Below, piece after piece: positions 27,420 through 28,560 of a stretch of DNA of 64,000 nucleotides; position 1 is the first letter of the stretch; each line of letters starts with the position of its first letter. Source of the stretch: Raphanus sativus (Eukaryota > Streptophyta > Magnoliopsida > Brassicales > Brassicaceae); contig NC_079518.1 of NCBI RefSeq assembly GCF_000801105.2, positions 23,168,800 through 23,232,799 on the forward strand, written 5' to 3'. The position numbers and the translations under genes were made by a program. The notes under the pieces were generated by a model. It had not been told where the DNA came from. It did not search any database and saw nothing but the letters and a program-made list of their open reading frames with translations.

Positions 27420-28560
27420 GTAGTGATGCGAAGAAAGCCCTCTGTGTGGTTCCCTCTTCCACCGAGATGGTGATTATTGATTCCGATGATGAGGATGAGG
27501 TTATGGGTGAGAGTGAGAAGCCCAAGTACCCGTTCAGTCGAGTCTTGTGCAGCATCAGAAGAGTCAAGGTGATGTGGTGCCTGTGACGCCATAATTCGCT
27601 TTTGAGGAGGTTGTTTTGGGGAACATGGAGGATATGTCTTGGGCCATTACTCCACTAGTGGAGGGACAAAGTAGCAGGGGCAACCTCCTTGCTATAGGAA
27701 ACGGTTTGGCTGTTGACAGAGATGTCTATGTGGGACAAGCGAGGGGAGAAAAGGTCCTTGCTATAGAAAACAGTGTGGTTAATAATAAGGGTGCCTATGT
27801 GGGCGTTGAGAATGATAATGAGCCTGAAGCAGTAGATGAGGATCTTGGTGATATCGGGAGCGAAATGGCCATGCCAATAGTAAGCACAAAGGATGCAGAG
27901 ACTTCACGTAATGGATCAAAGACCGATGAAGTGGAAGACTGTGAGCACTCCTTCATACTAAAGGACGACATGGGTTATGTTGCCGTGTCTGCGGAGTTAG
28001 TGACAAAAGCACTTTAGACATTATCAGTGTGAACTTCAGTAAGGCGAAATGAAGCACAAGGACATATGCTTCTGAATCTCGGGTTAAAAAGTGTGGCGAT
28101 TCAGATTTTGAGATTAAGTTATCTGCAGAAGGACGGATGATAGGCGGGTTTCCTGCCCATCCGACGCATGCTAGCGAGATGAAGCCTCATCGTGTAGCTC
28201 ATCTGGGTTGTGGGAGATGCTCCACCACGGGGGGATTGTATCGTGGTTCATGCTCCGGGTTCTGGAAAAACCTTCATGATCATCAGTTTCGTGCAGAGCT
28301 TCCTTGCAAAGTATCCTCAGGCTAAGCCACTGGTTGTGCTTCCCGAGGGAATTTTTTTTGTCTACCTGGGAAAGAGAGTTTGTGTGATGGCAGGACAGCG
28401 ACACTCCACGGCTTGACTTCTACAGTGCTAACGCAGAAGACCGTGCACAACGGTGGACGGAAAAGAAGAGTATCTTGTTTCTGGGCTACAAGCCGTTTTC
28501 AACCATTGTCTTGGACGGTACCGACATCGACATCGCCAATTGGGGCCGAGTAAGGATAGT
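27420..28560 (+). pseudogene. Captured DRD1/CLSY-type SNF2 helicase fragment inside the retrotransposon
   Basis: Reading across three frames gives a collinear series. An acidic IDSDDEDEV region comes first, then QGDVVPVTP, a MEDMSW block and a CEHSF...GYVA segment. LSAEGRMIGGFPAHP and EMKPH follow, then the Walker A block HAPGSGKTFMIISF (about 28251-28292) and KYPQAKPLVVLP. Last are LDFYSANAEDRAQ and KKSILFLGYKPFSTIV (about 28472-28519). The motif order and wording match the plant DRD1/CLASSY SNF2 family, closest in my recollection to DRD1, which acts with Pol V in RNA-directed DNA methylation. Stops and frame changes break it (TGA near 28050, shifts near 28215 and 28390), and downstream helicase motifs are absent. 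No intron borders were noticed, so capture from a spliced transcript is possible. Confidence 0.82.

Follow-up and report, generated by a model that had tools for sequence, protein, structure and literature searches.

LTR retrotransposons are known to capture cellular genes, and several mobile elements carrying host sequences have been described. The maize LTR element Bs1 contains segments of three host genes (a membrane ATPase, a xylan endohydrolase, and a beta-1,3-glucanase) and, according to PMC13317346, is transcribed and translated as a chimera. The same source describes VANC- and KIU-carrying Vandal elements, which keep coding genes linked to hypomethylation. In rice, CACTA elements carry miR820, a tested microRNA that targets the host DNA methylation gene OsDRM2 (PMC3459959). 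TR-GAG, a class of non-autonomous LTR elements, is named in PMC10552921.

Here, we describe a family of LTR retrotransposons from radish (Raphanus sativus), one copy of which lies in the 64,000-nucleotide stretch that was analysed (C8:23168800-23232799, referred to below as the window). The reading that we favour and consider likely is that of a gag-only, non-autonomous family in which one old capture of the 5' part of a spliced DRD1 transcript has become a non-coding passenger. The window copy has the following features:

24002-30594, plus strand: LTR retrotransposon
23997..24001, unstranded: 5' target-site duplication GTGTC (flanks read beside the LTR alignment)
24002..25694, plus strand: 5' LTR (TGTAACA...GCTACA), pairing with 28901-30594 at K80 0.0059
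25697..25708, plus strand: probable primer binding site TGGTATCAGAGC, read by eye
25811..26995, plus strand: gag-like ORF, 394 codons from stop to stop, first ATG at 25895 (ORF list)
27166..27237, plus strand: pre-insert segment, longer in other copies and matching within the family only
27229..27246, plus strand: junction left where ~270 nt between two GAGTTCGGG repeats were lost (comparison with other copies)
27239..28511, plus strand: DRD1 (CHR35)-derived insert in the element's sense, parent CDS +173 to +1489 without introns
28249..28290, plus strand: Walker A block HAPGSGKTFMIISF, Pfam ResIII barely above the cut-off, SNF2 below the cut-off
28463..28510, plus strand: block KKSILFLGYKPFSTIV, the final DRD1-derived piece (ORF translation)
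28512..28667, plus strand: post-insert segment, seen at insert-bearing places only
28668..28900, plus strand: element tail with a polypurine stretch ahead of the 3' LTR (purines judged by eye)
28901..30594, plus strand: 3' LTR (LTR alignment)
30595..30599, unstranded: 3' target-site duplication GTGTC (flanks read beside the LTR alignment)

The LTRs of the window copy (~1.69 kb each) align in 1694 columns with 10 mismatches and a single gap (99.35% identity), and GTGTC is present at both ends, as the initial annotation had noted. The element thus displays the hallmarks of its class, i.e., paired LTRs and a target-site duplication found by alignment, and a primer site and polypurine tract recognized by eye; the primer site at 25697..25708 is presumably of the initiator-Met tRNA type. 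A Pfam scan of the four ORFs at 26996-28900 revealed no pol domain, and the remaining ORFs there are short; absence of pol is a criterion for TR-GAG elements. No autonomous pol-bearing partner was identified, without a systematic search. The gag-like ORF has no Pfam match above the cut-off and no NCBIfam match, and some of its relatives in the database are named 'Retrotransposon gag domain-containing protein'. By eye, it comprises two related gag-type modules. The ORF of one relative (L050:2330-2788) shows, again by eye, one gag module compared with two at 25811-26995, and a duplication of the module in the window element is possible. Among 22 rows, the gag ORF is open over 368-372 codons in seven; its pooled third positions change at approximately twice the rate of the other positions at every depth, and its NG86 dN/dS is 0.24 (10 rows of the insert-bearing branch), the context-aware ratio being 0.38. 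By these codon measures, the gag ORF of the family is under purifying selection.

Several other features lie near the element in the window. An uninterrupted MULE transposase ORF of 1058 codons (20218-23394, minus strand) lies beside ORFs with Ulp1 (Peptidase_C48) and DUF1985 domains (17659-18345 and 13686-14639, both on the plus strand), and these ORFs together are a candidate for one Ulp1-carrying MULE of the KIU kind. Immediately past the 3' LTR there is a partial Serpin gene (30944-31795, minus strand), and positions 32064-37447 are occupied by a Ty3/gypsy-like element with 373-bp end repeats that are 98.9% identical and with gag and pol ORFs in three pieces (32384-36930). At 39932-42893, 706 bp direct repeats (99.3%) surround a 567-codon ORF whose gag match falls just below the Pfam cut-off; this is perhaps another young gag-only element. 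Near these repeats, positions 39105-39413 are 74% similar to the LTR start of the DRD1-bearing element.

The initial annotation proposed that the element had captured, at 27420..28560, a host transcript for an SNF2 protein of RNA-directed DNA methylation (RdDM), of either the DRD1 or the CLSY type. The place was right, although the DRD1 part starts at 27239 and ends near 28511. Both SNF2 peptides reported between the gag-like ORF and the 3' LTR (HAPGSGKTFMIISF at 28249-28290 and KKSILFLGYKPFSTIV at 28463-28510) are present and collinear, and their reading frames differ. When 26996-28901 is compared by blastn with a gene on C5 (L040), four collinear blocks are obtained (E down to 1e-127), and the insert forms one alignment with the spliced L040 transcript (81.9% over 1336 columns). 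The blocks, and the absent introns located by alignment to the spliced transcript, are as follows:

27239-27650, plus strand: blastn block 1 against L040, 82.3%
27660-27881, plus strand: blastn block 2 against L040, 83.1%
27890-28042, plus strand: blastn block 3 against L040, 93.5%
28042-28511, plus strand: blastn block 4 against L040, 79.0%
27660..27661, plus strand: absent intron between parent exons 1/2 (90 nt)
27891..27892, plus strand: absent intron between parent exons 2/3 (131 nt)
28043..28044, plus strand: absent intron between parent exons 3/4 (113 nt)

On these alignments, chance is excluded as the source of the match at 27239-28511, because this stretch matches one host gene block by block and also as a single alignment. 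L040 has an uninterrupted spliced frame of 921 codons and four GT..AG introns (86 nt, located 28 nt past the start codon, and then 90, 131, and 113 nt), and the block breaks in the window insert coincide with the latter three. Three of the four missing introns are testable in the window copy, and all four are absent across the family: the junctions are spliced in 16/22, 17/22, 16/22, and 17/22 aligned copies. Where a spliced junction is not seen, the copy does not cover it; the one exception is C1_9167, in which a deletion spans the two middle junctions. Because the family insert lacks all four parental introns, it was spliced mRNA that was captured, and the captured part, as delimited by the alignments, is that from ~25 nt upstream of the start codon to codon ~504.

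The last exon of L040 carries the SNF2 and helicase C domains, and its Brassicaceae relatives, where specifically named, are mostly CHROMATIN REMODELING 35 (120 proteins listed in a search made with the last exon only). CHR35 is DRD1 (PMC6458923), an SNF2-like factor of RNA-directed DNA methylation (PMC4709239). Since the relatives of L040 are mostly CHR35 and CHR35 is DRD1, DRD1 is identified as the donor. An unrelated helicase, which the initial annotation had named as a competing best match, is rejected by the L040 block matches and the last-exon relatives. A CLASSY origin is likewise rejected, the by-exon match of 79.0-93.5% being to a gene whose named Brassicaceae relatives are mostly CHROMATIN REMODELING 35. 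The 120 listed proteins do include at least five from other families that bear the name CLASSY 2 or 3; radish CLASSY genes are not among the named loci, and the matches of L041 and L042 to the insert extend over no more than 69 bp. Thus, the captured transcript is that of a host RdDM SNF2 factor, as proposed, and the choice left open between DRD1 and CLSY falls to DRD1, with the introns gone. A complete SNF2 ATPase with the helicase C half is absent from the insert, which ends at codon ~504/921 and is frameshifted.

The captured segment moves with the element. The insert stretch has at least 40 matches in the radish genome, which merge into at least 31 places, and when the parent and two short paralogue matches are set aside, the insert is found at no fewer than 28 places including the window, two of which adjoin on C6. 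Among the matches listed, the other 27 insert places are 79-94% identical to the window insert. That the segment might be missing from other family members was also considered there; of the 15 gag matches that are longer than 770 bases and 86% or more identical, 14 lie within 3 kb of an insert match, and for the remaining one (C7:22706964) the insert match is 17 kb distant. In an alignment of 22 copies with the spliced transcript (C625 came from a separate search), the longest copies span about -25 to CDS 1489-1513. The 3' end of the insert falls at CDS 1489-1513 in 13/22 copies and at 1266 in 2/22, 4/22 contain part of exon 1 only, and 3/22 run off the end of the available sequence before the 3' boundary of the insert. 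The DRD1 start codon and some leader are kept in copies other than the window copy, from which the ~270-nt deletion (27238-27246) took the start codon and the first splice junction. The segments bordering the insert were likewise matched within this family only: the part of L007 corresponding to 27166..27237 has 17 matches, all in the family, and 28512-28667 (156 bases) has 21 genome matches at 20 places including the window, all of which are also insert-bearing. A protein-level search for the insert in other species, covering predicted proteins only, yielded matches for 2/29 candidates, i.e., P0158 (radish annotation, C7) and P0159 (unnamed, resembling DRD1 read into an intron).

Five more distant relatives (L043, L044, L045, L047, and L050) have 67-78% similar 5' or gag stretches, and no DRD1 match was found in any of them. 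In L044, L045, L047, and L050, the left flank (as far as about 27165) and the right flank (starting at 28668) are both retained, so the tail at 28668..28900 is also found in four insert-free relatives; L043 retains the left flank only, and an N run follows, so the absence of the insert there is weak. Given the shared boundaries and the insert-free relatives, the pattern fits a single gain of the insert in one branch, i.e., a single capture. CDS 996-1250 divides the 17 copies that cover it into 11 at 0.206-0.227 from the parent and 6 at 0.101-0.118, a split that appears, by eye, to be due to a short replaced block. At C7:24580689, C136:14529, and C4:24906304, the DRD1 part ends at CDS 593 and is followed by a second copy of the ~27129-27165 sequence, which suggests a later switch back to an insert-free element. 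Three other places (C1006:7984-12679, C505:21214-27023, and C3:18411658-18416430) have LTR pairs of the same family with short interiors, in which only the leader is matched.

The initial annotation read the near-identical LTRs and perfect duplication as evidence of a recently mobile capture. This holds for the insertion in the window (K80 0.0059), whereas the capture itself is old and common to at least 28 places; the LTRs therefore date the window insertion only. With substitution rates of 1.5e-8 and 7e-9, the window insertion would be about 0.2-0.4 million years old, and the same rates would place the capture several million years back, far earlier than that insertion. A recent capture is rejected by the spread of the insert and by the parent-to-copy difference of 8.1 to 20.3%. 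Judging by LTR divergence, the family is still inserting recently. For eight other copies, K80 was obtained over the available parts of the LTRs: C9_2885 0.0020, C1_9167 0.0022, C136 0.0066, C7_21975 0.0180, and C6_26065 0.0203, while the LTR pairs of C8_13653, C6_31966, and C6_31826 are free of substitutions (664-1115 sites; the latter two are near-duplicates of each other). Among Brassicaceae proteins, one site (codon 283) favours a capture that postdates the divergence from Brassica and Hirschfeldia, and at four sites the parent has changed and the copies hold the older state; in both cases the sites are too few to use.

The gag ORFs of the window copy and C7_21975 are 97.0% identical and differ at 11/371 third positions, whereas the inserts of these two copies differ at 14.1% and their LTRs are about 83-87% identical. 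The insert closest to that of the window copy is in C9_2885 (6.1% difference), whose LTRs are among the closest to the window LTRs (90%, the same at two other places). The window element is thus a mosaic, such as template switching would produce.

It is reasonable to assume that the 5' part of the DRD1 mRNA (about -25 to codon 504) was gained in one old event, probably by reverse transcriptase template switching between element RNA and co-packaged DRD1 mRNA. The composite element would then have spread to its present 28 or more places, with recent insertions continuing. The family would live on its gag ORF, acting in cis or in trans, with pol supplied by another element, while the DRD1 part would decay through indels and substitutions. 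The window copy would be one recent insertion that additionally lacks ~270 nt, including the DRD1 start codon.

Frameshifting indels are present in 22/22 aligned inserts (2 to 13 per copy, counts that depend on the alignment), and in-frame stops are present in 17/22. The longest sense ORF inside the insert is 311 codons in C1116 and 140 in the window copy, for which a protein role had already been judged unlikely, in agreement with its frameshifted insert. Among copies, the NG86 ratio of the insert is 0.51, and the GY-model omega is 0.709 (read from the top line of a pooled output in which the insert log comes first). NG86 ignores the transition excess; a context-aware ratio and neutral simulations were run as controls. 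All of these insert ratios come from 14/22 copies; C7_24580, C136, C4_24906, C625, C390, C1_9167, C6_31826, and C1703 were excluded because they are short, limited to exon 1, deleted, or nearly identical to another copy. The DRD1 frame has a context-aware ratio of 0.77 (0.66-0.89), compared with 1.17 and 1.18 for the two alternative frames. Neutral simulations, with rates chosen by the analyst, gave 0.999 (sd 0.085) in 20 runs, and 1.001 (sd 0.066, minimum 0.814) in 200 runs that followed the inferred tree and applied identical masks; 0/200 lay at or below 0.77. By class, the ratio is 0.48 for differences fixed vs. the parent, 0.75 (0.60-0.96) for variants shared by several copies, and 0.82 (0.68-1.02) for singletons. 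The mild constraint on the DRD1 frame is best taken as a real but weak trace of past coding or host-gene exchange, too slight for a function to be assigned.

If host DRD1 mRNA repeatedly recombined with the insert over several rounds of reverse transcription, part of the divergence would have arisen in the constrained host gene, and such exchange would account for the frame constraint without a coding insert. The wide range of parent-to-copy distances (0.081 to 0.203) and the evident recombination of the element, as in the contrasting gag and insert of the window copy and C7_21975, are consistent with such refreshing. However, the boundaries are the same in all copies that reach them, and the smallest segment distance to the parent is 0.037 (C1284 and C1703, in which the segment is only partly covered). 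Codon 192, which is GAC in the parent and in three exon-1-only copies (GAG in 15/22, GAT in 2, no data in 2), gives a hint of exchange that may be homoplasy. We therefore regard refreshing as unlikely, and the same holds for the broader proposal that the DRD1 5' half was once used to weaken RdDM silencing of the family, whether through a truncated protein or through host-refreshed RNA from which small RNAs against DRD1 were made, with the frame constraint as its trace.

A little less probable still is that the insert once encoded a truncated DRD1 (the N terminus and Walker A, but neither the remainder of the ATPase nor the helicase C half) from which the element benefited, e.g., as a dominant negative, and that all copies have since decayed. 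The start codon and leader retained in other copies, the frame-0 ratio with its simulations, and the ratios for shared variants and singletons agree with this possibility, yet every copy is frameshifted, the frame sits 3' of gag with no evident translation route, and 0.77 is weak beside the 0.38 of gag, with close pairs (0.80) barely differing from deep pairs (0.74).

It is comparably doubtful that family transcripts give rise to siRNAs or sense decoys that would lower DRD1 and loosen RNA-directed DNA methylation. The window copy and the DRD1 mRNA share 63 exact 24-mers and 90 21-mers, the longest stretch being 39 nt, and the 22 copies jointly share 387 24-mers. These cover 854 nt of the ~1538 that were captured, and the longest stretch, in C1116, is 65 nt; the reverse-complement control for shared 24-mers gave 0. 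The miR820 of rice CACTA elements (PMC3459959) and the maize captured fragments described as siRNA reservoirs against donor genes (PMC13317346) provide precedents. Nonetheless, the insert is in sense orientation, a decaying copy would retain exact stretches anyway, and C625 shares no exact stretch and C7_24580 no 24-mer. Hairpin-forming pairs of opposed inserts were also looked for, and no such pair within 30 kb occurs among the matches listed.

It is very improbable that the insert is a LINE-derived processed pseudogene of DRD1 that landed by chance inside the element. Intron loss alone fits either origin, and the window copy has a short A run ~115 nt past the DRD1 part, but the insert stops within the coding sequence with no poly(A) immediately after and retains the sense of the element, and the other copies examined have a far shorter A run at that later point.

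The old capture of a DRD1 transcript thus remains the likely reading, and no prior report of this capture turned up in the open-licence literature searched. In a multi-copy family with a fragment of a core RdDM gene aboard, the element shares an RNA pool with its own silencer. The radish family offers a concrete, datable setting in which to ask whether small RNAs from captured fragments act back on their donor, and it bears on whether capture is tolerated or favoured when the donor belongs to the silencing machinery. With the parent, many copies, and insert-free relatives all placed, this question is open to radish small-RNA and methylation data. What makes the family interesting is which gene was captured, together with the slight and unexplained frame constraint.

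The DRD1-carrying radish family belongs with the known LTR elements that captured cellular genes, of the Bs1 kind. Like Bs1, it is an LTR element with host gene segments; unlike Bs1, it carries a single gene, from the RdDM pathway, at 28 or more places and with no evidence of translation. It resembles TR-GAG elements in having LTRs and a gag-like ORF with no pol seen, but differs in that the ORF lacks a Pfam match above the cut-off and a captured gene is aboard. As in the rice CACTA/miR820 system, a mobile element carries sequence matching a host DNA methylation gene; however, the radish insert is a long sense fragment known from sequence alone. With the VANC- and KIU-carrying Vandals, it shares a captured host domain in a silencing context, whereas those elements keep their genes coding and the radish insert is broken.
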